The translations under genes were made by a program, and so were the position numbers. The notes beneath the pieces are model-generated. The model saw only the letters and a program-made list of their open reading frames with translations, made no database searches and had not been told where the DNA came from. A stretch of 32,651 bases of DNA from Syntrophobacteraceae bacterium (GTDB lineage: Bacteria > Desulfobacterota > Syntrophobacteria > Syntrophobacterales > Syntrophobacteraceae): contig JARLHO010000162.1 of assembly GCA_031292215.1 (NCBI GenBank), positions 1 to 32,651 on the forward strand. The letters run 5' to 3'. The stretch's first letter is position 1; every line of letters begins with the position of its first letter. This document shows, piece after piece, positions 12,395 through 32,620 of this stretch.

Positions 12395-12400
12395 CCGGTC

Positions 12401-13607: not shown

Positions 13608-13670
13608 TCGGGGGGGGAGCGGGAAAAGAGGAGCAGGAAGGCTGAGTGGGGAAAGGTCCTATTTTTTCGC

Positions 13671-13735
13671 GCTCCCCGCTCCCCGCTCCTTGGTTTTTTG
13701 GCTCCCCGCTCCCCGCTCCCCGCTCCCCGCTCCTT
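13671..13735 (-). repeat. second heptamer array, GAGCGGG family, opposite orientation
   Basis: On the plus strand, three units (GCTCCCC, GCTCCCC, GCTCCTT; 13671-13691) and, after a nine-base T-rich spacer, five more (13701-13735) repeat the reverse complement of the array at 4304-4499. The same GAGCGGG and GAGCAAG-type phrases occur. Degenerate GAGCGGG-like units on the plus strand at 13609-13640 face it, so the region can fold back partly on itself. Confidence 0.85.
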
Positions 13736-14058
13736 GTTTTTTTGGCTTCTCTCGATTGGCGCCGCGCAAAGCGATTACCTTCCGCCCGCCTTTTAGACAC
13801 CAAAAGTGGGGCGACCACAAAAAAATTCTCTCATCCGATTAATCTCACCCTATCCACCCATCCCCGGGGTTTTGGCGCGGGATTTAAGGCGCCGCGCGGT
13901 TTCAGGGTCGATTCGTTTTTCCGCCTTGACCTCTCCGGTTAGACATGCGATGCATTAAGCCATTTGGTTTTTGAGTGGCGGCGGTATCTACGAGCCGGGT
14001 GCACCCCGAGCAATGGAGAAAACTGCCGCCCGCCCAGCCTAGTAGCGGAGAGGTAAAG
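13736..14058. other. intergenic stretch without recognisable gene
   Basis: From the end of the heptamer array to the chosen start of the sigma54 activator, I see no conserved coding signal. A GGCGC...GCGCC inverted pair occurs near 13875-13895 and a TTGACC (13926-13931) lacks a matching -10 box. An in-frame GTG at 13975 could extend the downstream protein by 28 residues. Confidence 0.5.
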
Positions 14059-15588
14059 TTGGATAAGCCGTTTGATTTTTATCGGGCCGTATCGGAGGAA
14101 CTCGACCCGGAGATATTGCAGCAAAAATTTCTGTCCGCGCTGCTCGATATGCAAAACGTCGAGCGGGGGTCGATATGGGTGAGGAGCGAAGGCGGCTACA
14201 CATGCCTTGAAGCCGTGGGCGCTCAAAGCGAGAGTATCAAGGCGATGACCATTGGCCCGGGGCAGAGCAGCATCGTGGGCTGGGTAATCGAAAACGGCAA
14301 AATGACTGTGGCCGAAGCGGGAAAAGATGCGCGTCATTTCTGGCAGGCCGAGCAAAAGATAGACATCAAGAGCAAGCTGATCCTTTGTTTTCCCCTATTT
14401 CTCAGGAGCGGGGAGGTGTACGGGGCTGTCCAGATAATCGATACGAGCGCCGGGGGAAATCATCTCAACCTTGACCGAAGCTACCTCGATCTTTTGCAGC
14501 AATTGATCGACATCGGGTCGATAGCTCTTAGTAATTCTCTTGTTTTCTCCCGGCAGGCCCAGGAAAACAGGAAACTGCGCGAGACCCTGGAGGCGATAAA
14601 CGACCGGGACGCAATGGTTGGCAGGAGCGGGGCCCTGCTTGCCGCGAGGAAGCGGGCCGCCGAGTATGCGAGAACGGATTTTCCGGTGCTTATCACCGGC
14701 GAGAGCGGGTCGGGAAAAGAGCTCCTTGCCCGCGAGATCCACCGGCTGAGCGGGAGGAGCGGGGGGGCTTTTCTGGCTCAAAATTGCAGTTGCATCCCCG
14801 ACACCTTGCTTGAAAGCGAGCTTTTCGGCTACGAAAAGGGCGCCTTTACGGGCGCCTTAAAGACCAAGGCGGGCCTATTCGAGTCCGCGAGCGGGGGGAG
14901 CGTTTTTTTAGATGAGATAGGAGATATGCCCCTGCAGCTCCAGGCAAGGATTCTTCGCGTAATCCAGGACGGGGAGATAAAACCGATTGGAAACGCGCGG
15001 ACCAAAAAGGTGGACGTAAGAATTATTTCGGCCACCAACCGGGACCTGCAAAGTGAAATCGGACGGGAGAACTTCCGGGAGGACCTGTTTTACCGGTTAA
15101 ACGTTTTGCCGTTGCATGTTCCACCTCTTCGCGAAAGGCCCGAGGACATAGCGCTGCTTCTGGACCATTTTTTGAGCCGGGAAGCGCTGCGGTTCGGGGC
15201 CGGCCGCAAGAGGTTTTCCGAAGAGGCCCTCGAGTTTTTGCTCGAATACGAGTGGCCGGGAAACGTTCGAGAGCTTGAAAACTTTGTAAAGCACATCATC
15301 GTTATTACGCCGGGAGAGTTCATTGCCAGGGAGGATCTCGCGCACCATTTCATCCGTGGGGAAGGCTGCCGGCCGGGGCAAAAGCCCGGGCCGAGCGAAG
15401 GGGCAAGCGTTGAAAAAAGAGGCGGTGAGCTAAGCTTTGAGGGCTGTTCCTGGGAGGAGGTGGAGCGACGGTATGTTCTTTATCTTCTGGAGAAGAACAA
15501 ATGGCACATCACGCGGGCCGCAAGGGAGGCGGGTGTCAACCGTTCGACTTTCGATTCGCGGATGAAAAAACTAAATATCAGAAAATGA
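14059..15588 (+). CDS. sigma54-dependent transcriptional activator with GAF sensor domain
   Basis: This protein of about 509 residues has an N-terminal GAF domain (about 10-170) and an AAA+ sigma54-interaction domain (about 185-420). Walker A is GESGSGKE (about 213), the sigma54-contact motif is GAFTGA (about 261), and an arginine-finger region is FREDLFYRLNVLPLHVPPLRERPEDI. A Fis-type HTH ends the protein (WHITRAAREAGVNRSTFDSRMKKL). It would activate sigma54 promoters after a GAF-sensed signal. I chose the TTG at 14059 because GGAGAGG lies five bases upstream; a GTG at 13975 without ribosome site is the alternative. The cysteine-cluster gene follows after 14 bases. Confidence 0.93.
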   Translation: MDKPFDFYRAVSEELDPEILQQKFLSALLDMQNVERGSIWVRSEGGYTCLEAVGAQSESIKAMTIGPGQSSIVGWVIENGKMTVAEAGKDARHFWQAEQKIDIKSKLILCFPLFLRSGEVYGAVQIIDTSAGGNHLNLDRSYLDLLQQLIDIGSIALSNSLVFSRQAQENRKLRETLEAINDRDAMVGRSGALLAARKRAAEYARTDFPVLITGESGSGKELLAREIHRLSGRSGGAFLAQNCSCIPDTLLESELFGYEKGAFTGALKTKAGLFESASGGSVFLDEIGDMPLQLQARILRVIQDGEIKPIGNARTKKVDVRIISATNRDLQSEIGRENFREDLFYRLNVLPLHVPPLRERPEDIALLLDHFLSREALRFGAGRKRFSEEALEFLLEYEWPGNVRELENFVKHIIVITPGEFIAREDLAHHFIRGEGCRPGQKPGPSEGASVEKRGGELSFEGCSWEEVERRYVLYLLEKNKWHITRAAREAGVNRSTFDSRMKKLNIRK

Positions 15589-16499: not shown

Positions 16500-17561
16500 T
16501 CATTTCGCGCGCTGGTACTGCTGGGGCCAATGGATGTCGGCGTGAAGGGCCTTTGCCGCGTGGAGCGGCCAGTAGGGGCGGCGCAGGAACTCGCGCCCCA
16601 TCATTACGACATCGGCGTTTCCCGTTGCGACGATCTGCTCGGCCTGGGCCGGATCGGTAATGAAGCCTACCGCCCCGGTAAGTATTTGGGCCTCCTGCCT
16701 TATGGCGGCCGCAAAAGGGACCTGGAACCCGGGGCCTGCGGGAATTTTGGCGTCCGGGGCCAAGGCGCCGCTCGAGCAATCGACCAGGTCGATGCCCGCC
16801 GTTTTTAGCCGGCGGCAGAACTCGACGGATTGCGCCAAATCCCATCCGCCTTCCATCCAGTCGGTGCAGGAGATGCGGACAAAAACCGGCAGGTGTGCGG
16901 GCCATGCCTGCCTCAGGGTTTGGGCGACCTGGAGAGGAAAGCGCATCCGGTTTTCGAGCGAGCCCCCGTATTCGTCGGTTCGGCGGTTGGAAAGGGGCGA
17001 GAGAAATTCATGGAGCAGATAGCCGTGGGCAATGTGGATTTCAATGACCTCAAAGCCTGCCTCCAAGCTGAAGCGGGCCGCTGCGAGAAATTGTGAGGCC
17101 ACCTCTTCGATGTCTTCCCGACTCATCTCCCGGGGCGTTTGCGATTGATCGTCAAAGGGGATGGGGCTTGGAGCTATCGGCAGCCATCCGCCATCGGAGG
17201 GGGCAAGCGGTTTTCCTCCGCGCCATGGGGCCTCGGTTGCAGCTTTTCGCCCGGCGTGGGCAAGCTGGATACCCGGCGCCGCCCCCTGGTCTTTTAGGAA
17301 GGCTGCGATGCGTTTAAATGCCAGGGCGTGGGCCTTAGACCACATCCCGGAGTCAAAGGGCGAGATGCGGCCGGCAGGTGATACAGCGGTCGCTTCGACC
17401 ATCACCAATGCCGCCCCTCCCACGGCTCGGCTTCCCAGATGAACCAGATGCCAATCGGTGGGCATCCCTTCGTTACTGGAGTACTGGCACATGGGGGAGA
17501 CGAAGATGCGGTTTCTAAACTCAATTTCCCTTATTTTTAACGGTTCGAATAATTTGCTCAT
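16500..17561 (-). CDS. Old yellow enzyme-family NADPH:flavin oxidoreductase (YqjM/NamA type)
   Basis: This 353-residue FMN-dependent ene-reductase starts SKLFEPLKIREIEFRNRIFV and has the YqjM-class residues C25 and Y27 in SPMCQYSS. The substrate-binding motif is EIHIAHGYLLHEFLSPLSN (the two His bind the substrate carbonyl) followed by RTDEYGGSLENR. Such enzymes reduce activated C=C bonds with NAD(P)H and often act in xenobiotic or oxidative stress responses. The ATG at 17561 gives the family start; a TTG three codons upstream has the better-spaced GAGG and cannot be excluded. Cupin gene follows directly downstream in the same direction. Confidence 0.94.
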   Translation of the reverse strand: MSKLFEPLKIREIEFRNRIFVSPMCQYSSNEGMPTDWHLVHLGSRAVGGAALVMVEATAVSPAGRISPFDSGMWSKAHALAFKRIAAFLKDQGAAPGIQLAHAGRKAATEAPWRGGKPLAPSDGGWLPIAPSPIPFDDQSQTPREMSREDIEEVASQFLAAARFSLEAGFEVIEIHIAHGYLLHEFLSPLSNRRTDEYGGSLENRMRFPLQVAQTLRQAWPAHLPVFVRISCTDWMEGGWDLAQSVEFCRRLKTAGIDLVDCSSGALAPDAKIPAGPGFQVPFAAAIRQEAQILTGAVGFITDPAQAEQIVATGNADVVMMGREFLRRPYWPLHAAKALHADIHWPQQYQRAK

Positions 17562-17819
17562 GGCGGTCAAGTTCCTCTACGGGTGAATCTTCTCCCCTTT
17601 TGCGGCAGGGGGGCGCGTGCGGAAAATCCCGGTGTCCGGATGGACAGGATTCTACCATTTCGGGCCGGGGGTGTGCAAACGGCAACCGGATGCGGCAACG
17701 GAAGGGCGACGAGAAAAGGCAAAAGGTCTTTTAATCTGTTTCGGGCGTTGCTATTGTAGCCGGCAGCCGTTGGGGCAATAGCTGCGAAAAATCCATTTAT
17801 TCCGGGGAGTATTTACGGT

Positions 17820-18908
17820 ATGGCGGGTAATCTCGTTTTCTATGCGGGCAAATATGCCATGGAGGCCATCGGCCGGGAGGGACTGCGTCCCGAAATGGTC
17901 AAAGCGGTCCTCGGTGCGGCCGGCGGGCCGAAGTGGCTGGTTCTCCACGGTCTGGACCACGCTATTTTTTGTTCCTGGTTTAAGGGGCGGAGCGAACCGC
18001 TTTACCTTTTGGGCTCATCCATCGGGGCCTGGCGGTTTGCGGCGGTGTCGCAAAAAGACGCCTCCGAGGGTCTTGGCCGGTTTCTTTCCGCCTATATCGA
18101 ACAGAGCTACTCGCCCCGTCCCGGGCGAGAAGAAATCACGAGCGAATGCGCGAAAATATGCGATGAGATGTTGGGGGAAAGGGGAATCGAAGAAATACTC
18201 AGTCATCCCTTCATGAGGCTTAGCGCTTTTACGGCTCACTGCAAGTGGCCGGTCGCAAGCGAAAACAAGGTGTTGTTGAGCCTGGGGCTTGCGGATGCCG
18301 CCGTCTACAACGGAGTGCACCGGGCGGGTCTAAGGTTTTTCTTCGACCGGGTGATTTTCTCCGACCCTCGGAACTCCCCGCCGTTCGGTGAAATGTCTGA
18401 CATTGCGACACGCTGGGTTCCCCTTTCGGCGGCAAACTTAAAAGACGCCCTGATGGCTTCGGGGTCTATTCCGCTGGTGATGTCGGGGGTAAAAGACATA
18501 GCCGGCGCCCCTGCTGGGATGTATCGGGACGGCGGGGTCCTCGACTACCATTTCGACCTGCCGGTTTTAGGAGATGGCGACGAAAACGGGTTGATTCTTT
18601 TCCCGCACTACTCAAACCGCATCATACCGGGGTGGTTCGATAAGCGGCTTCCGTGGCGTGGTCCCGGGGAAGAACATGTGGATCGGATGCTCATGGTTTG
18701 TCCCTCCGGGGAATTTATTGGCAGCCTGCCGCATAAAAAGATTGCGGACCGGGAGGATTTTGCGTTTTTCAGGGGCCGGGACGCGGAGCGCATCGCGTAC
18801 TGGAATGGAGTCGTTGCGGCAGGGGAAAGTCTTGGCGAAGAGTTCCTGGAGGCGGTCGAAACGGGAGCGATCCGGGAGCGGGTAAGGCCTATTTCGGAGA
18901 TTATGTGA
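17820..18908 (+). CDS. patatin-like phospholipase/esterase
   Basis: This 362-residue protein has the patatin-type nucleophile motif G65-S66-S67-I-G69 (Ser67), an oxyanion-type GGPK segment (about 35-38) and the catalytic Asp in the RDGGVLDYHF motif (about residue 236). This is a Ser-Asp dyad hydrolase expected to cleave acyl esters. The classical GGGxRG is replaced by GAAGGPK, so its substrate may be atypical. The ATG is preceded by GGGGAG at slightly long spacing. The 3' third (from 18534 on) is duplicated beyond the helicase gene at 25696-26107, and the duplication extends 37 bases past the stop. It is the intact copy. Confidence 0.85.
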   Translation: MAGNLVFYAGKYAMEAIGREGLRPEMVKAVLGAAGGPKWLVLHGLDHAIFCSWFKGRSEPLYLLGSSIGAWRFAAVSQKDASEGLGRFLSAYIEQSYSPRPGREEITSECAKICDEMLGERGIEEILSHPFMRLSAFTAHCKWPVASENKVLLSLGLADAAVYNGVHRAGLRFFFDRVIFSDPRNSPPFGEMSDIATRWVPLSAANLKDALMASGSIPLVMSGVKDIAGAPAGMYRDGGVLDYHFDLPVLGDGDENGLILFPHYSNRIIPGWFDKRLPWRGPGEEHVDRMLMVCPSGEFIGSLPHKKIADREDFAFFRGRDAERIAYWNGVVAAGESLGEEFLEAVETGAIRERVRPISEIM

Positions 18909-18945
18909 GGGGGGGGCGAGGGTTGTTTTTGTTGGGCTGCGCTTC
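18534..18945 (+). repeat. left direct repeat (3' end of patatin gene)
   Basis: 412 bp that align without gaps with 25696-26107; I counted 18 mismatches over the roughly 375 coding bases. It covers the end of the patatin coding region and stops inside the loop of a REP-like hairpin (18931-18957). Together with the right copy it brackets the helicase-nuclease gene. Confidence 0.95.
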
Positions 18946-18957
18946 GCTTAGCCCAAC
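18931..18957 (+). repeat. REP-like hairpin (GTTGGGCT/AGCCCAAC)
   Basis: Perfect 8-bp arms 18931-18938 and 18950-18957 with an 11-base loop. A related hairpin with GTTGGGTT/AACCCAAC arms and an 11-base loop is at 26475-26501. The right patatin copy has the left arm only, so the duplication boundary falls in the loop. No U-tract follows, so it is not a classical terminator. Confidence 0.7.
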
Positions 18958-19088
18958 CTACTCGGCTTCGCCCGGGTGTCCCCATTGGGACGCGATGTGC
19001 TGCTTTTCGCGCTCCGCATTTTTGCGTTGGTGATGCGGGCGTTGGGCGAAGGCGCAGGACTGTTGGGAAAACGATTGAGACGACGGTT

Positions 19089-22000
19089 TTAAGTTTTTTG
19101 AACCTGCTCCAGCGAAGCCTTTTCCCATGCCGCTTCCAGCCGAGGCCGGGATATATTCCTTAGCCTTTTCAGACCCAAATGGCGGGCCATGAGAATAATG
19201 CCCACGGGCAGATGAGTATCGCCAGATGACTCCTTGATTATTGAGCGAGCAAGGGCGATCAATTCCGGCATGGCGACCTGGTTGACATAACGGGGATTGC
19301 CGTCTCTTCCAGGACGACAAGAACTACAATGTTCGGCCTCGGCATCTGTTTTCCAAAAGAAAAGGCCCACCTCTTCTTCTGTCGTCCTAAAACGAGCTTT
19401 GGCGGTGCTCCATACCGATGATCGGATGCTTGCGCCGGCTTTAAAGAAACCTAGCCGCTTGGCAACTTGATGAGCCAGTACATCTTGATGGATGGGCGAC
19501 TCTGCCTCGATTATTGAAACAATGGACTGGAGGATCTTTTCTTTGTCTATTTGCTCAAAGGCGCCAAGTTGCCGTGGAAGCGAACCTTCATGATTTGGGG
19601 CTTTCTCGTCGGCAATGTCGTCGGGAGCCGTTTCGAAGTCCACTGGTAGAGATTGTGTCTCTTCATTTACCTCGAGCTCAGGAAAGATTTTCATCTCCCC
19701 GGATGTCGTGTAGTGCCCCAGCTCTGGCGCCCCCGCGATTCTGGCGTGTCCGGTAGAATAATTTACGATTGACGGCCCTGTGGCCGGAATGTCTATATTG
19801 GGCTCTTGTGCCCTCTTTTCACGCGCGTTGTTTAGCAACCCGGTTAATCGATCGTGCAATCTGTTCGTTGCTCGCTCTCTGCTTGTCCACCATTCGGTTG
19901 ACCAGACACGAAGGATCTCCCATCCCAGTCCTCGCAGAACTGACTCTCTTAGTTTGTCCCGATCTTTCGCCGTGGCCGCACGGCGATAATTTGCGCCATC
20001 GCACTCGATCCCAGCCAGATATCGGCCCGGCACATCGGGATCGACAACTCCCAGGTCAATTCGAAACGTAGAAACGCCGATCTGCGGATGCACGGTCCAG
20101 CCTTTTTGACGTAAGGTACTGGCCACGGCCTCCTCAAAGGGCGATTCGAAGTGTCCGACGCTGCCGTGTATCTCCTCCATGAATGCGCGAGCTCCTCGCT
20201 GAGCGAACTCGAGATATAGCCTCAAGTCCCTCACCCCGGGGGCGTTTGTGCGTGTCAAGTCTATTTGATCAGGCTTCATAGAGGAGAAGACCCGCAATTC
20301 GTGCCGAGCACGAGTGACTGCGACATTCAGGCGCCGCTCGCCGCCAGCTTTGTTGAGCGGTCCAAAGTTCATAAGGACCCGTCCGGTAGAATCGGGGCCA
20401 TATGTTGTTGAAAAATAAATGATATCCCTCTCGTCGCCCTGAACATTCTCTAAATTCTTTACGAAAAGATTTTCTCCTGATCCGGCGTCGAAATACCCTT
20501 CCAAAGACCTGTCTTTTCGGCATTCATTTTCCAGCAGGTCCTCGATGAGCTTTTGCTGCTCAGCATTAAATGTGACGACGCCTATGCTCAGTCCCTTTTC
20601 GGAGAACTGCGGGTCTGAAAGCCTGGAGACGATCTCCGCCACCAGGGCACGGGCCTCGACCGGATTAGTGCGTGTGTTTCCTCTCTGGTATGTGCCCGCC
20701 ACATACGTATATGATACCGCCCGATCTTGGGCATGCGGGGCTGGAAAAGTTAAAAGCTTTCCATCGTAATACCTGTGATTCGAGAAGGTGATGAGGCTCT
20801 CGTGACGGCTCCTATAGTGCCAGCGCAATTGAAGTGGGGGGATGCCCGAGCTGAGACACTCGTCTAAAACACTCTCCATGTCGCAATCTTGCGCCGAGTC
20901 GTCATCGGCCGTCTCATCCTCGGAACGGGTGAAAAAATTTGTCGGCGGCAGTTGTTTCGGGTCGCCGGAGACTACGACATGTTTGCCACGCGCCATTGCC
21001 CCTATGGCGTCCCATACAGGAATCTGCGACGCTTCATCGAAAATTACCAGGTCGAACCGACTCACTCCTGGCGCGAGATACTGGGCGACTGAAAGTGGGC
21101 TCATGAGTATGCAGGGTGTGAGCCTGGTCAGTATCCTTGGAACCGCACTCACAAGTTTGCGAAGGGGGAGATGCTTCGATTTCTTCTGCATCTCCTTTCT
21201 GAGCACACCCCACTCGTCTTTTGTTTCTTTGTCATCATCAAGGGCGCCTGAGCGGAGACGCATGCGGATGATTTTGCGGGAAAGGGTGCGCAAGGTTTCG
21301 TCCAGGGCTTGAAAGTCCGTAATGGTTTGTTCATGCTGGACAGCTACGAAGGAGCGCAGAAGTGGAAGTTCCTCAGCCGCCGCGATGAGCCACCACCGGC
21401 AGTAATTGACCTCGAATGTCTGAGATACAACGTCGGGTTCCACAGCGCCGGAGATGACGGACTCCACCAACGGCCCAAGGCCCCTTGAGAAAGCCTCCTG
21501 CTTCACCCTGAGCCATGCGCACCAGTCGAACAGATCCGGGTGCTGTTCCGAAATTTCCCTGCAGGCGGCGGTAATCGAAGGGATGTCCGTATCAAGCCAA
21601 TCGCTGTTTTCTGCGAGACGCCGGGTTGCTGCCCGTTTAGACCCGAATCGCTCCAGCGTTTCGATGAAAGCGGCAAACGCCGTGTTTGCCCCTCCATTAG
21701 GGGCAAGCAAGATGTTTCCGGGGCCAAGAAGATATTCCAGGGCCTTTTGAAGCCCCATGTGGGTATCGGGATTGTCTACGAAATGTGCAATTGCAGACTG
21801 TAACTCTTCGAAAAATGATGTCGCTGACTCGATTTCATCGATATCCGTTCCGATGCCACGCCAGAAGCCGTCTGTGCGCTCCCGCAAGTCGTCGAGGCTC
21901 TTTAGTTTTTCGTGGACCGAACGCATACCGGCGAGGGTGGTCAAATCTTTTACACAATCCCGGGCAGGATTGGGTTCCTTCTCGGCATGTTCCAAAAGCA

Positions 22001-25000
22001 GTCTGCCAACGCGGTCCTGCAGAAGCGCTGCGATATCTGTATGATCGTTTTCTTTAGCCGGCGGCTTGCCAGCCGGAAGCGCTGGAAAATCAGATATTCC
22101 CAGCAGTGCTCCCAGCGCTTTTCCAGGGTCTACCGGTGCGCATGGTGCTATGGGCAGGGAAGAGGCGACCTCGAGCAAAGCGTCTCGAAAAGCAGCGCAT
22201 TTGCCGTGCGCCAGCTTTGGCGACTCCTGCCAGAGCATCCTGGCTTCTTCTTCCAACGGGTTCACCGAACTTAGCCGATCCCGGATGGTGCTCATTTTAA
22301 TGAGGATAGCTAATTCACTCTGACAATCAAGCTTGTAGTCGCCCTTATCGGCGGTAACGGTCCCAAGAGCTTTTCGAACACGCCGGCGAAGGACACGGCG
22401 CCGCATCCACCAGCTTTTTTCGGACTGCTCCCAGGTGGACATCAGGATTGTGTGATCGAGGTCATGCGCTTGTAATGTATAATCGGCACTCAGGCTGCTA
22501 CCAAGGTCCCCGTATTCCTTCAAGAGATCTATCGTTTGCTGGAGTTTTTGAATCCATGCTTGGCGAGAAAGCAGGCAAACTGATTTGAGGTTGTCATGGT
22601 CGAGCTGCAGGGCTTCTCCCCGGTATGGGACTGAGAGAGCATTTGAGTATTCCTTATACTCCCGCAGCATTTGGCGTCCTTCCCGCAGCCTGGCGACTAT
22701 CGCGACGGCATCAGGGCGAAGAAGGAAGCGCCAGTCCCGGCCCGCCGCTCGCGGCAATGAGCCGGCTAGCCGCTCCATACCGCCAAGTCCTTTGGAATCC
22801 GAGCGAATTGCCGGGATATTCGTTATTTGTGTGATCGCTTTTACTGTATCTGCGAGTTGGCCGCATAAGCTTTGCAATTCATCGGCCGAGTCAACCAGCA
22901 TAGTAGCCCAGGTTGGCGACCATTCCCGCCGCCTGATCTCCTTTAGAGCCGTAGACTCAAGATTTCCGGCAGTGTGTCCATGGATACGCAGATTTGACAC
23001 GACCTCGCGCAGCTTAGCCAGGTCCGAGCGGTCGTGAGCAGTGGCAGACGGCCAGCAGAGCCTAACTGAGGTTATATCCGTTCGGCTTACGACAGTTCCG
23101 ACTGCATAATAGGCCGTCAGGCCGTTTGAGAAAGGCCGATGAATTGTTTGCACATACTCATTAAGCTTGTCTTTGAGTTCGCCCAGGTTCTGGGATTCTA
23201 AATCCCAGTGGTTCTCACCGATATCTTCATTCGCTTCGTAGGAATTTCGGAGCTGTTTAAGAACTTCCAGTTTGCTGGATTTGTTAGAGTGAAGTTCGAG
23301 GCAAAATTCACCTAGACCTATTTCTTTAAGGCGGCGGTAGACGACATTGAGGGCCGCAGTTTTTTCTGCGACAAAGAGGACTGTTTTGCCCTCCGCCAAG
23401 CACTGCGCAATTGTGTTGGCTATGGTTTGGCTCTTGCCCGTTCCAGGTGGACCAACCAAAACAAAATCCTTGCCCCTGGCGGCCGTGGCAACTGCGGCCA
23501 GTTGGGAGGAATCTACGGGCAAGGGGCAAAAGACGTTTTGTGGCGGCAGGCTGCTGTCTAATTCCCCGGGAGCGAGAAAGGCGACGCCATCTTTGTAGGT
23601 CCGGGATGGCGTGTCCAGCAGATGGCGCACAACAGGGCTCTCTTTAAGCGTTTCAGTTCGGTCGACAAGGTCTTTCCACATGAGGTATTTGGCAAAGGAA
23701 AAGAGGGCTATTACAACCGTACGGGATACTTCCCAGCCAGGGATATCTTTGATCGCTATCTCAACAGTCCGCCATATTCTCTCAATATCCAGCCCGCGTG
23801 CTCCCTTGAGTAAATCATTTTCGATTGCATCGAGGCCGGAAATCTCGAAGTCCTTGCGAAGCATTTCTATCAGCGTCAAATTGAAACGGGGCTCGTCATC
23901 ATGTAGGGACAAATAAAAGCCTGATTGAACGCTTCTCCGTTCGAGCTTAACTGGAATGAGGACCAGTGGAGCTCTGCAGGGTTTCTCTCGCTCCACGGGT
24001 TTCCAGGACAAAAAACCCATACCCATGAACAGGGTATTTGCACCGCCTTCGTCCAGCGAATTCCTGGCTGCCCGATACAGTTCAAGGAGTCTGGTGTCCA
24101 ATTCATTTCCTGGCAGTGGGGATAATACCTGATTGCGGTCGAGCGCATCGCGCGCATGGCTCAATATCAGATCTTCCTGATGTCTATTTTTGTGCAGCGA
24201 GTATTCGCGCGGGTCGACGTCATATTGCTCGATGCTTGGAAGGACACGAAGCCTATGTCCCTCTGCGAGTCTATCTTCCAAAAGGGCTGGGGCAGGGGCG
24301 ATCAGTTCGACAACGCGTTTGGTGGCTCTGAAATTGAGCAGGTTGTTTCGCGCCGAAAGATCCAGGAGCCTTCTTTGCCACCTTTCAAGGCGGGTCAGCG
24401 TCCCCTTTGACGCCCGCTCCTCGAAAGCTGTGGCATCAAGTGCAAAGTCCGGCGCCTCTTCTAACTGCGGTTGGCTAATCTCCTCACATACCTTTCGGGA
24501 CAGACGCTCCGGCCCGGCTCCTTCAGCCAATGCCAACGGAAGAATGCGTTGAATCCTTGCCCTGCGAACATCCACAGCGAGGTGGAAAAGGCCTTCTTTC
24601 TCCCCGGATAAGTGTCCTTCGCCGTATTCACGAGCCCACTTGAAGGAAGGGGGCAAACCCTTGCTTTGCGTTGCTAGAGTACTTTCGAATAGAATGAGTT
24701 CCTGCAGGTGGAGACGCTTGCGCAGAGCGGTAATATCGTCTACGACCGCTGTGGAGAAGGTTTCATCGGAGAGCCAGCACCCAAGGAATGAATGACCTTG
24801 AGTGAAGACGAGAACGGGATTTAACCCGCACTGTTCGATGCAGGAGGCGAAAAGCATTGTGAGGTCTAAACAAGTTCCTACGCCAGCTTGGATGACTTGT
24901 GACGGGGGACGAACTTTCTGACCGGTTTGTTCGAAGCTTGCCGGGGGCAACACGTACCCGATCCCCAGTCCACAGACGGCATTCCAAAGAGCCGACATCT

Positions 25001-25523
25001 GTTCCCATGCGCCCTTCTTTCCTCGCCCGTAGCCAACTGTGGAAGGCTCCTTGCCGTGGGTTTTCAGGATGTCTATCGTTTTTCGGAGGATTTGCTGCAC
25101 AGTAGGATCATTTGGCTGCACAAAAGCGGCTGCCAATTCAGGAAAGTGGGCGATCCCGCCCCACTCATTTCTTGCCAGGAGTTCGACCTGGAGGCTCAGT
25201 TTGGTGATCTCATCGCAGCCTTTGCGCAGCAGAAAATGAAGCGAGCCCTTTTCCGCTTCGTTCAATCGAGCGAGCGCTCCTGCGTCCATGTCCAGATCCA
25301 GATTTGGGATCCGATAGCGTTGTCCAGGCCCTATCTGGGCTATACGCCAGGTAGAGGATATGAAAAAAATCGGTGAGGAGCTAACGATCAACTCAATATC
25401 TTGTAGGGGTTCTGTTCCCTCGTTGATAATTGCAACGTCTCTGAGAATTGGCACCGCGTTTTGCTGTAGTGCGAATGATATTTTGGGCGCCACAAATGCT
25501 TCAATTCGTGCAGATGAGTCCAT
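19089..25523 (-). CDS. DUF4011 helicase-nuclease with transglutaminase-like and DUF3320 domains (putative antiphage defence)
   Basis: This 2144-residue protein has, in order: a beta-rich N-terminus (1-130); a transglutaminase-like Cys/His domain (about 130-260, Cys in GVGTCLDL, His in GHSFLG); DUF4011 (about 383 onward, RLLDLSARNNLLNFR); an SF1 helicase with Walker A VGPPGTGKSQT (about 691), Walker B FDEASQIPVWDA (about 1494) and the VAVTRARHELRVF motif VI (about 1738); a Vsr/PD-(D/E)XK-like nuclease (about 1790-1880, FRIDLGVV and GIECDGANY); and DUF3320 near the end. This helicase-nuclease combination resembles the single-gene Hhe-type antiphage systems as I recall them. Helicases with a roughly 800-residue insert between Walker A and B are usual for DUF4011. 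The ATG at 25523 follows AGGG; an earlier in-frame start at 25589 is possible. GC content is visibly lower than in neighbours. No partner gene is adjacent. Confidence 0.9.
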   Translation of the reverse strand: MDSSARIEAFVAPKISFALQQNAVPILRDVAIINEGTEPLQDIELIVSSSPIFFISSTWRIAQIGPGQRYRIPNLDLDMDAGALARLNEAEKGSLHFLLRKGCDEITKLSLQVELLARNEWGGIAHFPELAAAFVQPNDPTVQQILRKTIDILKTHGKEPSTVGYGRGKKGAWEQMSALWNAVCGLGIGYVLPPASFEQTGQKVRPPSQVIQAGVGTCLDLTMLFASCIEQCGLNPVLVFTQGHSFLGCWLSDETFSTAVVDDITALRKRLHLQELILFESTLATQSKGLPPSFKWAREYGEGHLSGEKEGLFHLAVDVRRARIQRILPLALAEGAGPERLSRKVCEEISQPQLEEAPDFALDATAFEERASKGTLTRLERWQRRLLDLSARNNLLNFRATKRVVELIAPAPALLEDRLAEGHRLRVLPSIEQYDVDPREYSLHKNRHQEDLILSHARDALDRNQVLSPLPGNELDTRLLELYRAARNSLDEGGANTLFMGMGFLSWKPVEREKPCRAPLVLIPVKLERRSVQSGFYLSLHDDEPRFNLTLIEMLRKDFEISGLDAIENDLLKGARGLDIERIWRTVEIAIKDIPGWEVSRTVVIALFSFAKYLMWKDLVDRTETLKESPVVRHLLDTPSRTYKDGVAFLAPGELDSSLPPQNVFCPLPVDSSQLAAVATAARGKDFVLVGPPGTGKSQTIANTIAQCLAEGKTVLFVAEKTAALNVVYRRLKEIGLGEFCLELHSNKSSKLEVLKQLRNSYEANEDIGENHWDLESQNLGELKDKLNEYVQTIHRPFSNGLTAYYAVGTVVSRTDITSVRLCWPSATAHDRSDLAKLREVVSNLRIHGHTAGNLESTALKEIRRREWSPTWATMLVDSADELQSLCGQLADTVKAITQITNIPAIRSDSKGLGGMERLAGSLPRAAGRDWRFLLRPDAVAIVARLREGRQMLREYKEYSNALSVPYRGEALQLDHDNLKSVCLLSRQAWIQKLQQTIDLLKEYGDLGSSLSADYTLQAHDLDHTILMSTWEQSEKSWWMRRRVLRRRVRKALGTVTADKGDYKLDCQSELAILIKMSTIRDRLSSVNPLEEEARMLWQESPKLAHGKCAAFRDALLEVASSLPIAPCAPVDPGKALGALLGISDFPALPAGKPPAKENDHTDIAALLQDRVGRLLLEHAEKEPNPARDCVKDLTTLAGMRSVHEKLKSLDDLRERTDGFWRGIGTDIDEIESATSFFEELQSAIAHFVDNPDTHMGLQKALEYLLGPGNILLAPNGGANTAFAAFIETLERFGSKRAATRRLAENSDWLDTDIPSITAACREISEQHPDLFDWCAWLRVKQEAFSRGLGPLVESVISGAVEPDVVSQTFEVNYCRWWLIAAAEELPLLRSFVAVQHEQTITDFQALDETLRTLSRKIIRMRLRSGALDDDKETKDEWGVLRKEMQKKSKHLPLRKLVSAVPRILTRLTPCILMSPLSVAQYLAPGVSRFDLVIFDEASQIPVWDAIGAMARGKHVVVSGDPKQLPPTNFFTRSEDETADDDSAQDCDMESVLDECLSSGIPPLQLRWHYRSRHESLITFSNHRYYDGKLLTFPAPHAQDRAVSYTYVAGTYQRGNTRTNPVEARALVAEIVSRLSDPQFSEKGLSIGVVTFNAEQQKLIEDLLENECRKDRSLEGYFDAGSGENLFVKNLENVQGDERDIIYFSTTYGPDSTGRVLMNFGPLNKAGGERRLNVAVTRARHELRVFSSMKPDQIDLTRTNAPGVRDLRLYLEFAQRGARAFMEEIHGSVGHFESPFEEAVASTLRQKGWTVHPQIGVSTFRIDLGVVDPDVPGRYLAGIECDGANYRRAATAKDRDKLRESVLRGLGWEILRVWSTEWWTSRERATNRLHDRLTGLLNNAREKRAQEPNIDIPATGPSIVNYSTGHARIAGAPELGHYTTSGEMKIFPELEVNEETQSLPVDFETAPDDIADEKAPNHEGSLPRQLGAFEQIDKEKILQSIVSIIEAESPIHQDVLAHQVAKRLGFFKAGASIRSSVWSTAKARFRTTEEEVGLFFWKTDAEAEHCSSCRPGRDGNPRYVNQVAMPELIALARSIIKESSGDTHLPVGIILMARHLGLKRLRNISRPRLEAAWEKASLEQVQKT

Positions 25524-25623
25524 GGTGCAATCCCTGATGAGAGGAAACACGATCATCGCTATATGGCACGGCACGATGTCCAAACGCAATGTTATTTTGC
25601 ATCGGATTGTTATGTGATACAGA

Positions 25624-26070
25624 GTGGCCTATATCTTTGAAGATGAATGGACCCTTTTTCGCGCTCATTTTTTGAGGACTGATACTGGCCGTGCCGGGGT
25701 CCTGGACTACCATTTCGACCTGCCGGTTTTAGGAGATGGCGACGAAAACGGGTTGATTCTTTTCCCGCACTACGCAAACCGCATCATACCGGGGTGGTTC
25801 GATAAGCGGCTTCCGTGGCGTGGTCTCGGGAAAGAACACGTGGATCGGATGGTCATGGTTTGTCCCTCCGGGGAATTTATTGGCGGCCTGCCGTATAAAA
25901 AGATTGCGGACCGGGAGGATTTTGCGTTTTTCAGGGGCCGGGACGCGGAGCGCGTCGCGTACTGGAATGGAGTCGTTGCGGCCGGGGCAAGTCTTGGCGA
26001 AGAGTTTCTGGAGGCGGTCGAAACGGGGGCGATTCGGGAGCTGGTAAGGCCCATTTCGGAGATTCCGTGA
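25624..26070 (+). pseudogene. 5'-truncated duplicate of the patatin-like gene
   Basis: From 25696 the sequence matches the last third of the patatin gene at 18534 onward (GVLDYHFDLPVLGDG to VRPISEI), without gaps and with only substitutions. The first two thirds, including the GSSIG nucleophile, are missing. The reading frame stays open from a GTG at 25624, giving 148 codons, but the first 23 residues are unrelated and no clear ribosome site precedes them. As a hydrolase it must be dead, since the catalytic serine is absent. It lies about 100 bases upstream of the divergent helicase gene. Confidence 0.9.
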
Positions 26071-26107
26071 GGGGTGGCGTAGGGGTGTTATTGTTGGGCT
26101 GCGCTTC
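25696..26107 (+). repeat. right direct repeat (copy of the patatin gene end)
   Basis: 412 bp matching 18534-18945 in the same orientation. Identity ends at GCTGCGCTTC, within the loop of the REP-like hairpin whose complete form is present at the left copy. Confidence 0.95.
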
Positions 26108-26157
26108 AAAAGAGCAGAGCATGGGATTAACGCAAAGATAAAGATACAAAATCAAAC

Positions 26158-26180
26158 CACAGAGGCACAGAGGCACAGAG
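26158..26180 (+). repeat. CACAGAGG tandem repeat (three units)
   Basis: Two full and one almost full 8-bp units, CACAGAGG, preceded by an A-rich ATACAAAATCAAAC stretch. Similar CACAGAGGCACAGAG phrases are found between genes in many unrelated bacteria; the origin is not known to me. Confidence 0.8.
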
Positions 26181-26194
26181 AAAGAAAACTCTTT

Positions 26195-26229
26195 TTTTGA
26201 CCGGCCGGGGAGACGACGGCCGGTCAAAA
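26195..26229. repeat. inverted repeat with 12-bp perfect arms
   Basis: TTTTGACCGGCC (26195-26206) pairs with GGCCGGTCAAAA (26218-26229) around an 11-base loop. It could act as a bidirectional transcription barrier, but neither strand has a U-tract directly after the hairpin other than the paired A/T end itself. Confidence 0.75.
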
Positions 26230-26351
26230 GGGCTCCGCCTTCGGCGCGATGCACTCACTCCATGGCCGGCGGAGCGGAAAGCGTCATCAGTCATCAGCGT
26301 GGTCCGTGCTGTACGAAAAGGCTTGAAATCCCCCCAACCCCCCTTCGAAAA

Positions 26352-26377
26352 CTTACAATTACCCACACATGCGCCCA
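26352..26377 (+). repeat. left arm of a 26-bp inverted repeat
   Basis: CTTACAATTACCC followed by ACACATGCGCCCA; the exact reverse complement is at 26624-26649. The arms are 246 bases apart and enclose a REP-like hairpin, like a very small non-coding insertion. Confidence 0.9.
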
Positions 26378-26474
26378 GCTATCTCCTTTTGCAAGGTTGC
26401 AAAAAAGGGGGGCCGCCGCCTCCTTGGATGCGGTTTGAACGAACAGGAAACTTAAAGTTTTATAAGATTCTTTT

Positions 26475-26501
26475 GTTGGGTTTCGCTGCACTCAACCCAA
26501 C
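26475..26501 (+). repeat. REP-like hairpin (GTTGGGTT/AACCCAAC)
   Basis: Perfect 8-bp arms at 26475-26482 and 26494-26501 with an 11-base loop, the same design as the hairpin at 18931-18957. The sequence GTTGGGTTTCGCTGCACTC is a phrase seen in intergenic repeats of many proteobacteria. Confidence 0.7.
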
Positions 26502-26623
26502 CTACATTTGCTCCCCGGCGAATTTTTAGGCGGCGTCCAGATGGTTTTTCCCAAACGAAGTTTCATAAGAGGGGGGGCGATCAGGCCAAGCCCCTTTCTT
26601 GGGAGTCTCCGCTAAGGGGTAAG

Positions 26624-26649
26624 TGGGCGCATGTGTGGGTAATTGTAAG
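26624..26649 (-). repeat. right arm of the 26-bp inverted repeat
   Basis: Exact reverse complement of 26352-26377. Flanking bases are partly similar too (TTCAAAG against TCGAAAA outside the arm), so the original repeat was probably longer. Confidence 0.9.
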
Positions 26650-26724
26650 CTTTGAAAAAAAGAGGGGCGATTGGGGCCGGCCCCCTTCGGCGATTGACTC
26701 GGCTACGCTGGTATTTTGGAGATT

Positions 26725-26756
26725 ATGTTTGCCCGGCGATATCGCCGGGCAAACAT
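26725..26756 (-). terminator. 32-bp perfect palindrome after the autotransporter gene
   Basis: ATGTTTGCCCGGCGAT (26725-26740) is followed directly by its exact reverse complement (26741-26756), 15 bases beyond the autotransporter stop. A GC-rich stem at this position is most simply a transcription terminator for the minus-strand gene, although no long U-tract follows. A dyad protein-binding site is the alternative. Confidence 0.5.
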
Positions 26757-26770
26757 CAGGCCGTCTTTGC

Positions 26771-29700
26771 CTAGAACGAAATGCGCAGTTCGCCTATCAC
26801 GCCGTTACTTCGCGCCCGGTTTCCGACAAGGCCGATGTAGCCAAGCGAGGTGGAGAGGCCGCATTTGCTCTTGAGGGTTAAGCCGGCCCTTATGACGGCC
26901 ATGTCCTGGCTCATATCGGGAAGGGGAACGGTCATGCCCAGAGGCGTGTCGACAAAAGAGATGTTCTCGCTGTTCGGGGACAACCCGAAGCCGTGCTGCC
27001 AACCGGCCTTAATCATCGGCACGAGGACGCCCCTGGAGGTATAAAAGGGCCGCTCCACCTCGATCCCCACTTCGGAAAATACCTCATCGGTTGTGTGGCC
27101 GTTGATTTTCATGGCTGCAAGCGCCCCCGTTTCGTCGATAGCGCCTTCGCCAAGATTGTAGTAGCCGATGGAGGCAAAGGGCTGCACGTTCCATTGGCGC
27201 ACTGGAAAACTGTGTCCCGCTTCGGTCAATACCGAAAAAGCGTTTCCCCTGTGGTTGCTGTCATTTAGGGATGGGGGCAGGGAACCGATGTCCACCAGGC
27301 GGCTCATCGTATAGTGATGGTTGCCGTAGGTGAGGATGCTCTCCACGTAGGAGCGATCGTTGAAGTAGGTGCCGTAGACAGAGCCGTAAAGGCTGTTGAG
27401 GTCGCTGTCGCCGGGCATGCCATACATGTTGAGCGTGGAGTAGGAATAGCCGAAATTTGCGCCCAATATGAGATTGCGGGTAAAGGCGCGATCAAGGCCC
27501 AGGGCGAAGCCGCTCGTGCCGAGATCATAGCCGGAATTACCGCCAGGCGAGTCTTGGTTACCCCATTGGCCAAAACCCTGCATCCAGAACCCGAGCCCGG
27601 AAGTGTCCTGTTGAGCGCCGGCCAGCCCCTGGCCCCCCTTGGATGCGAGGAGCGGAAAGGAAGTCTTTGAAAGCGCGCCGGGCGTCGTTTGCGCCCGCTC
27701 AAGCGAGCGCAGGGTCTCCAGGCGCTGCTGGAGCGCGCGCTCGTATTGCCTGGTGATGTCGAAGGTGGCGTTGGTAGCCGCCCAATAGAGACTCGGAGTC
27801 AGGCTGTCAAAGGCGGCCTGGAACCTGGAGGGGGCAAGCCTCTGAAATTCGGCCAGGAGCAGGGCGAAGCGGCCGGAGGGATCATCTGCGATCAGTTGGT
27901 CCAGGAAACCGCCCACCGCCTTGCTTGTCGGGTCGTAGCCAACGGAGGTAAAGCTGCCTACGTTTGAGACTACCTGGACTGCATGGCCGCCGGTGTAGGT
28001 GAGGCTAAAGTCCAATAAAGGGGAATTGGCAGGCAAAGTACTTGCCAGGCTCGTGGCCGCGAAGCTTCCCGTTACATTTCCCGTAAGCACGGTGTAGGCG
28101 GCGCCGTTTTGGAGGGGCTGCGTGTTACTTAGCGCTATTTGCAGCCCGCCGCCCAGGTTGGCGGCCCCGGAGACGTTCAAACTGCCGCAACTGCCGTTAT
28201 TGCCAAGCGTTACCTGCAATATCCCGGCGTCGGCCTGGATGAAACCGCCGGTGAGAGCCGTAGCCGTCGCGCCGAGGGCGACAAGGCCGGTGTTGGTGAA
28301 TATGCCGTTGCCAAGGTTTACTACCGGCCCGGCATTATAAATCGCGCCCGGATAGTTGTTGACCGTAATGTTGCTCACGCCTCCGGGGAGGCTGAGACCG
28401 CTGTTTAAAGACGAAGCCGCCTGAACGGACTGGGTGATCGAGCCGGTGATTGCGCCGTGATTTTCAATGATCAGATTCCCGAGTTGAGGCGCGCCGTAGG
28501 AGGCTTGCTGCGTAACCGCCGTTCCGGTTGCTCCGTCCAGGGTGGTGATTGCGCCAAGATTGAACAGTTCATTGTTGGCTCCATCGAGGAAGAGGACGCC
28601 ATAGCCATTGTAGGTGGTGAGGGAGCCGTCGGGATTTGTCGCCGTGCCGGTGTGGCCGCCCTGCGCCAGGCCGTAGTTCGCGCCGGGTTGATTGATGGTG
28701 ACGTCGATATTGCCGTCGCCCTTGGCGCCGAGGCTTTGGGCCACGATGGCCGATGAGCCGAGTCCGTTGACGACAATGTTGCCGGGAGTCGCGCCGGGAC
28801 CGTTTAGGGTGACGGACACATTGCCCGCCTTGTCCCCGCCGGCCGTGCTCTGGGCGACAATACCGTCGGCGTCCTGGCCGTAGGTGGCGATGTCGCCGGT
28901 CTGTGTGACGGAGACATTTCCGCCCGTGCCGCTCGCGCCGCTGAAATTGCTGCCGTTATACAGGTAACCCCACAGGAATTCGTTCGTTTTTGAGCCGCCG
29001 CCGCCCGAGCCCCCGACGCTCTGTGCGAAGATTGCGTCGGAGTCGTTTCCCGAGGTTGCGATGTTGGCGGTGTTGGCGACCGTGACATTTCCGCCCGAGC
29101 CCCCGCCGCCGCCGCTGCCGCCGATATTTAGCGCCAGGCCGAAGTACTGGGTAAAGTTCATGCCGTGGAAGGGCCCCCCGAGGGTGCTGGCGGACCCGCC
29201 GCCCCCGCCTATGCTTTGGGCATAGATACCGTAGGCCTGCTGCCCGGAGGTGATTATGTTCCCGCTGTTGGCGACCTGGACCGCGCCGCCGTTGCCGGCC
29301 GCGCCGCCTGAGCCGCCTATGACGATCGTGCCCAGTTGCAGGCCATTGTCCGTACCGCCCCCGCTGCTGTTCGTGTCGGTGAACATCTGGCTCTGGTCGT
29401 AGGAGGCAACGCCTCCGCCCCCGCCCAGGCTTTGAGCGTAGATGCCCTGCGCGCCGTCGCCTGTCGTGGTTATGGCGCCGGAATTGGTTACTGTGACATT
29501 GCCGCCGTTGCCGCAACTGCCTCCGCTGCCGCCCACGCTGAAGGCGAGGTCTAAACTGGGCAGGACCCAGCTTTTCCAGTCGTTCAAGTCTTCGGAGGGT
29601 ATTGCGAGCCCGTTGGCGCCTTCGCTGCCCGAGCCGCCGCCGCCGCCGACACTTTGCGCAAAGATGGCGTAAGCGCCAACGCCGGAGGTCTTCACGGCGC

Positions 29701-32620
29701 CGGAATTGGTTACCGAGACATTGCCGCCGTTGCTGGCCCCTCCGCCGCTGCCGCCCACGCTGACCGATTCTTTCAAATTAAACCCCGCGGCCTCGTTGTT
29801 TTTGTTGCCGGCCTTGGAGAGAGCGGTTACCAGGGAGTAATTATTACTATCGCCGCCGTCTCCGCCGCCTCCGCCAACGCTTTGGGCAAAGAGGCCGTAG
29901 GCTTGCATTCCCTCGGTGGCGACATTGCCCCCATTGGCGAGGGAGACCGCGCCTCCGTTATTGCCGTTGCCGCCCCCGCCGCCGACCGAGACGGCGCCGA
30001 CAATGTTGGCGCTCGGCAAAGCCATGGTGCTCAGTTCATCTTTTGTGGCGGCCGGGTCGATGGTCAGAACGGAACTGGCGCCCCCGTCACCGCCTCCTCC
30101 TCCGACACTCTGGGCCTCGATGCCGTAAGAGTTATCCCCGGAGGTGAAGATGTTGGCAAAGTTTTCGACCGTTACCTGCGAGCCCGCGCCTCCAACGCCT
30201 CCGCCGCCGCCTACCGATACGTTGCCGGTTATGTTGAACGTCGGGTTCTGGCCGAATCCGGGCTTGATACTGTACGTGTTGGCCGCCCCGCCGTCGCCTC
30301 CGCCGCCTCCGATGCTTTGGGCGAGGATGCCCAAGGCGGAGTCTCCCGAGGTGGTGATGGCGCCAAGAGCCGGATTGGTGGCCCCACCGTTATTTACGGT
30401 CACACCGCCGCCTGCGCCGCCGCTTCCCCCCGTACCCCCGATGGTGACGGCGCAGTTAAGGCCGCTCGAATAGCTGGGGAAAGATCCGTCCACGGTCGTA
30501 CTCCAGCCGCCGTTTCCACCGCCTCCGCCAACGCTTTGGGCCTCGATGCCGATGGCCGATTGACCGCTTGTGGCGATTGCGCCGGTGTTGCCGACCTCTA
30601 CGCCGCCGCCCGAGCCTCCTCCGCCGCCCGAGCCACCCACGGCCACCGGGCCCCCTATGCTCATCGTGCCCAGGCTTGCTACCGAGGCATTGACCGCGAC
30701 GCTCCACCCCGCGTTCCCCCCGCCGCCTCCGATGCTTTGGGCCAGGATGCCGTAGGAGTCTTCTCCAAGGGTTGTAATCCCGATCTGATTGAGGACATTG
30801 ACAAGGCCGCCTGCGCCGCCCAGGCCGCCTGCGCCCCCGATGCTCACCGGAAACGCAAAGGCGCCCTTATAGCCGCTGGTCCCCAAGGAAGCATCGAAGG
30901 TTGCCGCCACACTGCCTCCTCCGCTGCCTCCTCCGCCCCCGACGCTTTGGGCGAAAATGCCCACGGCCTGGTCGCCGAGAGTGGTGATGGCGCTGCCGCC
31001 GTTAGCGGGCGCGAGATCATCGACAGTGACGCCGCCCCCGTTCCCGCCCGCGCCGCCCGAACCGCCCAAAGACACCGCGACACTCATGGAAAGGGGGACG
31101 TCAGGGGTGTTGGAGCTGATACTGCCCGCCCCCGACCAACCGGCATTGCCACCGCCTCCGCCGACACTTTGGGCTAAAATGGCATCGGCCCCGCTGCCCA
31201 AAACCGTCTGCGAGCCATCGGCGTTGGCGACGATCGAGCCCGTGGAGATCGAACCCGTGTTGTCGACGGTTACCGCCGCGCCGTTGCCCCCCGCGCCACC
31301 GCTGCCCGAGACGGAAACACTGGTGGAGAATATCGGGGTATAGTTGCCGGAAATGCTGAAATCGCCGTTACCGCCTCCTCCTCCCACACTCTGGGCCTCG
31401 ATGCCCCGGGAGGTGTCATTTTTGGTGGCGATAGCGCCGGCGTTATAAACGTTAACTACCCCGCCCGCGCCGCCCCCGGTTCCGCTGCCGCCAACGCTTA
31501 CCGGGAGGGCCACGATGCCTGCGGCCACGTCCCATCCGCCCTCGCCCCCGCCTCCGCCAACGCTTTGGGCCATGATGCCCTGCGAAGCTACGCCTGTCGT
31601 GAAGATGTCGCCGCTCGAATAGGCGCCGCCGGATCCGATATCGACTTGACCGCCGCCTCCGCCCGAGCCGCCCGAACCGCCGATACCCACGAGGCCGCCG
31701 ATGCCCGCGGTCACATTCCATCCGGCCGCGCCGCCTCCTCCCCCGACACTTTGCGCCATCATTGCGGCGGCATCGCTTCCGGAGGTGGAAAGGGTATTAT
31801 TGCTCGAAGCGGCGACATTGCCGCCGTTGCCCCCGCCTCCGCCGCTGCCCCCGATGCCTATGCTGACAGCGTTTAGGCCTGCTGTGACGTCGTAGTAACC
31901 GGCGCCGCCGCCTCCCCCGACGCTTTGGGCAAAAATGGCGTAGGCCGAAGCCCCGGAGGTGGAAATAACGCCGTCGTTCGATGTGGCGACATTGCCGCCG
32001 CCCCCGCCGCCACCGCCGCTGCCGCCCATGCCGAAGTGCAGGCCCAGACCGTTGCCTGCGTTAATCGAGTAGTCGCCTTCTCCGCCGCCTCCGCCCACAC
32101 TTTGGGCAAAAATGGCGTAAGCCGAAGCGCCGGAGGTGGAGATAGCGCCGGAGTTTGAGGCGGCGACAATGCTCCCCTTGCCTCCCGAGCCTCCCGAGCC
32201 GCCGATGGAAACGCCCGCGACGGTGGAGACCGAAACCGCGCCGCCGCCGTCTCCTCCGCCTCCGCCCACTCCCTGTGCCTCGATGCCATAGGCGGATTCA
32301 CCCAGAGTGGTGAGCGCGAGGTAGTTTGTGAGCGCGACCTGTCCGGCGTCGCCGCCTGCCGCGCCGGCGCCTCCCAGGGCGACTATGGTTCCGCTGGCGC
32401 CGCCCGCCCCGCCCCCGCCTCCTATGCTTTGAGCCAGGATCGCAGCGGCGCCCTTGCCTTGAGTGGCGATGGCGCCGGAGTTATTGGAGGCAGCGCCAGT
32501 GTCGACTGTGACTGCGCCCCCATTAGCCCCGCCGCTCGCAGCGGCCCCCCAGGCAATCAGGCCGTAGGCCGCCCCCCCCCCCCCCCCCCCCCCCGCCCCC
32601 CGCCAGGGCCCGGATCCCAT
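26771..32620 (-). CDS. giant glycine-rich autotransporter, N-terminus not reliably present
   Basis: The readable frame is 1949 residues. The passenger consists of about 20 repeats, each roughly 60-100 residues, built as VTVxNxGxIxTSGxxAxGIxAQSVGGGGG; most keep the AQS[VIL]GGGGG core, and the last three are degenerate. After a Leu/Ala-rich linker (about 1570-1660) comes an autotransporter beta-barrel (about 1675-1949) beginning GFWMQGFGQWG and ending with terminal phenylalanine, the usual BAM signal. Such proteins are surface-exposed or shed; adhesin-like roles are common. The apparent start MGSGPWRGAG has no signal peptide and directly precedes a 23-base C tract (plus strand), so the true 5' end is lost to a contig end, slippage or assembly error. 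A palindrome follows the stop. Confidence 0.88.
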   Translation of the reverse strand: MGSGPWRGAGGGGGGGAAYGLIAWGAAASGGANGGAVTVDTGAASNNSGAIATQGKGAAAILAQSIGGGGGAGGASGTIVALGGAGAAGGDAGQVALTNYLALTTLGESAYGIEAQGVGGGGGDGGGAVSVSTVAGVSIGGSGGSGGKGSIVAASNSGAISTSGASAYAIFAQSVGGGGGEGDYSINAGNGLGLHFGMGGSGGGGGGGGNVATSNDGVISTSGASAYAIFAQSVGGGGGAGYYDVTAGLNAVSIGIGGSGGGGGNGGNVAASSNNTLSTSGSDAAAMMAQSVGGGGGAAGWNVTAGIGGLVGIGGSGGSGGGGGQVDIGSGGAYSSGDIFTTGVASQGIMAQSVGGGGGEGGWDVAAGIVALPVSVGGSGTGGGAGGVVNVYNAGAIATKNDTSRGIEAQSVGGGGGNGDFSISGNYTPIFSTSVSVSGSGGAGGNGAAVTVDNTGSISTGSIVANADGSQTVLGSGADAILAQSVGGGGGNAGWSGAGSISSNTPDVPLSMSVAVSLGGSGGAGGNGGGVTVDDLAPANGGSAITTLGDQAVGIFAQSVGGGGGSGGGSVAATFDASLGTSGYKGAFAFPVSIGGAGGLGGAGGLVNVLNQIGITTLGEDSYGILAQSIGGGGGNAGWSVAVNASVASLGTMSIGGPVAVGGSGGGGGSGGGVEVGNTGAIATSGQSAIGIEAQSVGGGGGNGGWSTTVDGSFPSYSSGLNCAVTIGGTGGSGGAGGGVTVNNGGATNPALGAITTSGDSALGILAQSIGGGGGDGGAANTYSIKPGFGQNPTFNITGNVSVGGGGGVGGAGSQVTVENFANIFTSGDNSYGIEAQSVGGGGGDGGASSVLTIDPAATKDELSTMALPSANIVGAVSVGGGGGNGNNGGAVSLANGGNVATEGMQAYGLFAQSVGGGGGDGGDSNNYSLVTALSKAGNKNNEAAGFNLKESVSVGGSGGGASNGGNVSVTNSGAVKTSGVGAYAIFAQSVGGGGGSGSEGANGLAIPSEDLNDWKSWVLPSLDLAFSVGGSGGSCGNGGNVTVTNSGAITTTGDGAQGIYAQSLGGGGGVASYDQSQMFTDTNSSGGGTDNGLQLGTIVIGGSGGAAGNGGAVQVANSGNIITSGQQAYGIYAQSIGGGGGSASTLGGPFHGMNFTQYFGLALNIGGSGGGGGSGGNVTVANTANIATSGNDSDAIFAQSVGGSGGGGSKTNEFLWGYLYNGSNFSGASGTGGNVSVTQTGDIATYGQDADGIVAQSTAGGDKAGNVSVTLNGPGATPGNIVVNGLGSSAIVAQSLGAKGDGNIDVTINQPGANYGLAQGGHTGTATNPDGSLTTYNGYGVLFLDGANNELFNLGAITTLDGATGTAVTQQASYGAPQLGNLIIENHGAITGSITQSVQAASSLNSGLSLPGGVSNITVNNYPGAIYNAGPVVNLGNGIFTNTGLVALGATATALTGGFIQADAGILQVTLGNNGSCGSLNVSGAANLGGGLQIALSNTQPLQNGAAYTVLTGNVTGSFAATSLASTLPANSPLLDFSLTYTGGHAVQVVSNVGSFTSVGYDPTSKAVGGFLDQLIADDPSGRFALLLAEFQRLAPSRFQAAFDSLTPSLYWAATNATFDITRQYERALQQRLETLRSLERAQTTPGALSKTSFPLLASKGGQGLAGAQQDTSGLGFWMQGFGQWGNQDSPGGNSGYDLGTSGFALGLDRAFTRNLILGANFGYSYSTLNMYGMPGDSDLNSLYGSVYGTYFNDRSYVESILTYGNHHYTMSRLVDIGSLPPSLNDSNHRGNAFSVLTEAGHSFPVRQWNVQPFASIGYYNLGEGAIDETGALAAMKINGHTTDEVFSEVGIEVERPFYTSRGVLVPMIKAGWQHGFGLSPNSENISFVDTPLGMTVPLPDMSQDMAVIRAGLTLKSKCGLSTSLGYIGLVGNRARSNGVIGELRISF
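32572..32594 (-). repeat. homopolymer tract of 23 G (C on plus strand)
   Basis: The tract lies at the 5' edge of the autotransporter frame and encodes Gly. Sequence beyond it (32595-32651) does not resemble the passenger repeats and contains an in-frame stop just before the apparent ATG. It may be a slippage-prone tract or an assembly artefact. Confidence 0.9.

Follow-up and report, generated by a model that had tools for sequence, protein, structure and literature searches.

Little is known about how single-gene defence systems spread when they lack mobile-element machinery. Nobusato (2000) and Furuta (2010) reportedly observed the insertion of restriction-modification genes with long target duplication. 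Insertions of this type, affecting restriction-modification genes, have been described in the literature (PMC1643837, PMC3031569, PMC3874152). In E. coli, linear DNA that carries homology at one of its ends closes into a circle again and then integrates through a single crossover (Amarir-Bouhram 2011, PMC3240628). The homologous gene end was duplicated in 56 of 60 such unusual integrants (109-950 bp in the 14 that were sequenced), while the remaining four arose by homology-facilitated illegitimate recombination (PMC3240628). The locus described here, in a stretch of 32,651 nucleotides (the window) from the genome of an uncultured Syntrophobacteraceae bacterium, is a real insertion scar at a recognised defence gene, and the kind of rearrangement is already known. 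Its features are as follows.

16500-17570, minus strand: NADH:flavin oxidoreductase of the OYE family (Pfam Oxidored_FMN, 248.6 bits)
17820-18908, plus strand: intact patatin-like gene of 362 codons (weak Pfam Patatin match, below the gathering score; full-length orthologues in five congeners)
18534-18945, plus strand: left copy of a 412-bp direct repeat
18931-18957, no strand assigned: REP-like hairpin of a dispersed family (more than 40 matches in the genome; DNA fold z = -3.9)
19089-25523, minus strand: predicted ProA-type anti-phage helicase-nuclease (DUF4011, SF1 helicase, MTES_1575 endonuclease, DUF3320)
25524-25695, no strand assigned: region upstream of the helicase, up to the novel joint 25695/25696
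25696-26107, plus strand: right copy of the repeat, a patatin 3' fragment without a start that holds codons 239-362 and a further 37 bp
26108-26770, no strand assigned: right flank, dense in dispersed intergenic repeats (26148-26246 and about 26303-26693)

The two copies of the repeat were identical at 388 of 412 positions (94.2%), without gaps and at an offset of 7162 bp. The match was beyond chance (blastn E = 0.0) and similarity stopped abruptly at either end. The left copy comprises codons 239-362 of the patatin-like gene and 37 bp downstream of it; codons 1-238 are missing from the right copy. A sequence-only reading of this stretch had described a gapless 412-bp repeat of about 95% identity, attached on the left to an intact gene and lacking the 5' part on the right, and both descriptions proved accurate. 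The assembly of the source genome is broken into 177 contigs and dispersed repeats lie at the right edge, as an assembly chimera would predict, but the copies were assembled separately, differ at 24 sites and share no exact run longer than 69 bp, which makes a chimera scarcely credible. The repeat families at 26148-26693 have more than 100 matches in the genome and are partly shared with one congener (G007). Further right, a minus-strand frame of 1949 codons (26771-32620) contains many repeats of about 150-230 bp, has no Pfam match and probably encodes a large surface protein. Elsewhere in the window, two arrays of 7-bp units (GGAGCGG-like; 4301-4513 and 13614-13747) lie 9.3 kb apart in opposite orientation, and 36 bp of them are perfectly complementary.

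The right edge of the repeat coincides with the apex of the REP-like hairpin, and the right copy retains one arm only. We infer that the hairpin may have played a role in breakage, coincidence being possible. No short target-site duplication was found at the insert. The stop at the hairpin apex would also agree with an in-place tandem duplication of a patatin-end/helicase segment, in which the helicase already lay beside patatin and the second helicase was deleted later, the hairpin marking the deletion point. However, this requires an extra large deletion ending exactly at the hairpin and leaves the arrival of the helicase unexplained, and we consider it improbable.

The helicase gene is the only gene between the repeats. 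Its open frame (6.4 kb) extends from 19089 to 25589 on the minus strand, and the true start is likely the ATG at 25523, judging from the profile match. The protein passed the NCBIfam profile NF058533 'anti-phage protein ProA' (2139.9 bits, curated cut-off 1500) and also matched PADLOC PDC-S37, giving an identity to what had been proposed from the letters alone as a defence-like helicase. The match spans the whole protein with identical domain order, but the nearest homologues found share only about 50% identity. Hhe (NF042953) is a cousin of ProA/PDC-S37; the score against it (834.4 bits) fell below its curated cut-off (2000), and the protein is not classed as Hhe. An anti-phage function is predicted from family membership. 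Our literature search found no account of ProA as a DUF4011 anti-phage protein. By eye, residues of about 150-270 resemble a transglutaminase-like fold, and the N-terminal part has weak matches in separate frames of about 530 amino acids in congeners (loci L029 and L044).

The insert has a lower GC content than the DNA to its left (53.4% vs. 55.9%), and the helicase GC3 (0.561) is the lowest among the 18 genes of the window. The lower GC had been taken as a sign of transfer; the direction is correct, but the difference is slight and the argument weak. An unselected frame of this size would be expected to gain about ten stop codons by chance while the repeat diverged by approximately 6%; none was observed, so the helicase was probably retained for use, if its entry coincided with the duplication.

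No recombinase, transposase, integrase or integrase remnant was present in the 6.75 kb separating the repeats. Integrase-borne islands are recognised by an integrase and short att repeats, mostly located at the end of a tRNA or other gene, whereas the repeat found here is long and coding, and the unit has no integrase. A related helicase, at locus L304, does lie in a classical island that has an integrase and whose repeat falls at the end of a tRNA; this would be the precedent for a site-specific integrase island that had lost its recombinase and kept long att-like repeats. For the present locus we regard such an origin as very unlikely, since 412 bp far exceeds an att core, lies in coding sequence and has neither integrase nor remnant beside it. 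The L304 island (5298-15514) carries a ProA-like helicase, a tyrosine integrase, a DNA methyltransferase and a 180-bp repeat containing a tRNA end.

The patatin protein was used to search ten congeners, five of which matched. Each of the five has one full-length patatin (69-76% protein identity) and no second fragment, whereas the source genome gave exactly two matches, the intact gene and the right-hand fragment. ProA-like genes were absent from these five congeners or located elsewhere, never beside patatin; in G001 and G005, DUF4011 helicases of roughly 32-41% identity are encoded on other contigs. The search for empty sites that the sequence-only reading had suggested thus yielded, among congeners, five genomes with a single patatin and no adjacent helicase, at the protein identities given above and with unrelated 3' flanks. 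The OYE-family gene adjoins patatin in G001, G005 and G010 too, and this side is syntenic in all three, but the 3' side of patatin is not. Downstream of patatin, G001 and G007 carry an HTH-cupin regulator, and G005, G009 and G010 have other genes; the best match of this regulator in the source genome reached only 32%. Neither flank of the insert matched the congener flanks beyond dispersed repeats, and the patatin loci of other genera had no direct repeat overlapping patatin. The duplicated state is thus a derived one. An ancestral tandem arrangement, which had been named as one of two findings that would overturn the insertion, was ruled out: five of the five matching congeners are single-copy and the other genera show no repeat. 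Carriage of patatin by a virus was also rejected, viral contigs giving one distant match only. In G007 (L048, 8833-9468), a ParE-type toxin gene and a small upstream gene lie directly 3' of patatin, before the HTH-cupin regulator, which indicates that the genus has acquired at least two different accessory genes at this gene end.

The left and right copies are 94% identical to each other, while either is about 70-77% identical to any congener, and they have a 3-base gap in common. Each copy resembles the other much more than it resembles any congener sequence, and the duplication thus arose within the lineage. Between the copies, dS was 0.085 and dN/dS was 0.47, a ratio based on the small number of 18 coding differences; for the same stretch between congeners it was about 0.07-0.24. 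Eleven of the 18 differences are nonsynonymous, a share that purifying selection would seldom produce at an omega of 0.15 (P = 0.013), that is marginal at 0.2 (P = 0.05) and that agrees with neutral evolution (P = 0.11). With the congeners as outgroups, the right copy carries seven derived amino-acid-changing differences and the left copy three. The raised dN/dS, mostly on the right side, favours an old event over a recent import from a donor diverged by approximately 6%. These few differences suggest an old insertion whose copies would have been near-identical initially and diverged in place after the right one lost function.

Taken in its strict form, the circle model proposes that a circle carrying the helicase and a patatin fragment came recently from a donor diverged by approximately 6% and integrated by a single crossover. 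The topology fits exactly, the E. coli experiments provide a precedent with matching duplication sizes (PMC3240628) and 94.2% is within the range expected between close strains. However, 11 nonsynonymous changes in 18 are too many for two constrained strain alleles (see the P values at omegas of 0.15 and 0.2), neither a circle nor a donor was seen, and the viral contigs lack a patatin of the source lineage. We consider this model doubtful.

The reading that we favour, with some reserve, is an insertion with long target duplication: the ProA-type helicase would have entered just 3' of a resident patatin gene through an event anchored by homology, in which about 412 bp of the patatin 3' end became duplicated. 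The incoming DNA would have paired by homology with the patatin end. Its other end would have been linked by illegitimate joining at the site corresponding to 18534, whether through a circle formed by re-ligation and then one crossover, or directly. This would leave a complete patatin gene at the left and, at the right, an orphan 3' fragment; the two copies would probably have been near-identical at the start, the right one drifting afterwards. The same map would be expected from homology-facilitated illegitimate recombination, from long-target-duplication insertion of host DNA, or from tandem duplication followed by deletion. The circle and single crossover proposed at the outset therefore stand in part: insertion beside a pre-existing patatin, the exact topology and the E. 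coli precedent agree with them, but the circle itself is only plausible and other homology-anchored routes fit as well. When the two copies were recombined in silico, 7162 bp were lost and the 362-codon patatin was restored at all four crossover points tried, in agreement with the predicted excision of about 7.16 kb leaving one intact gene. RecA-type recombination between the copies could yet excise these 7162 bp and leave a single patatin.

The locus resembles the E. coli re-circularised DNA in that a homologous gene end is duplicated around the insert (PMC3240628), but the E. coli case is a laboratory plasmid system, while the event proposed here in Syntrophobacteraceae would be old. It resembles the restriction-modification insertions in having a defence gene between long direct target copies (412 bp, 94.2%), no transposase or integrase in the unit and, at the level of congeners, relatives free of the insert. 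It differs from them in that the gene is a ProA/DUF4011 helicase, the duplication is 412 bp compared to 'in the order of 100 bp', and the empty sites come from congeners alone.

We analysed 57 DUF4011-helicase loci of the phylum, 45 of which have at least 1.5 kb on either side. A locus was scored as a scar when direct repeats lay within 1.5 kb of both gene ends, a criterion fixed after the first hits. Scars were present at 6 of the 45 loci, the present one included. Of 142 control intervals matched in size, which were not from defence-rich regions, one had a scar (Fisher p = 0.0008). The difference persisted (p = 0.011) with the window omitted and the genus of L235 and L236 counted once. The batch that prompted the criterion gave 5/25, and the batch collected later 1/20 (p = 0.23). 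The repeats at the other loci are as follows.

L200: the helicase stands between an intact 287-codon gene, which precedes it, and a fragment of that gene lacking the 5' part; the two are 70% identical over 700 bp
L235 and L236 (both from one genus): a stretch of about 145 bp from the gene that precedes the helicase recurs just behind it
L288: 62 bp from the start of a DNA methyltransferase gene recur before the helicase
L190: noncoding repeats, possibly an old dispersed element, giving weak support

No further copy of the 287-codon gene was found outside the locus in the L200 genome. Upstream of the intact gene in L200 there is a third, short 3' fragment (4976-5343), which shares 91% identity over 112 bp with the fragment on the right, as though insertion had recurred at this locus. 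Two other candidates were discarded: the 73-bp repeat at L191 resembles ordinary paralogy, and L304 is a classical tRNA/integrase island.

The recurrence of scars around DUF4011 helicases is suggestive, a lead and not a result. One tentative generalisation, which we hold to be possible but not probable, is that ProA and its DUF4011-type relatives among the defence helicases are a recurrent mobile unit lacking an integrase. On each of its repeated entries into genomes, such a unit would duplicate a long stretch of a neighbouring gene, with an intact gene, the helicase and an orphan gene fragment as the outcome; the helicase-nuclease itself, or breaks at REP-like hairpins, may assist. The pattern around these helicases merits a planned survey. 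The scar points to mobility of a defence gene without moving machinery of its own. As it records where the joint lies, which gene was the target and how long the duplication is, it makes the question of how defence genes move testable, both by looking for the same pattern near other defence genes and by looking for precise gene loss through recombination between the copies.
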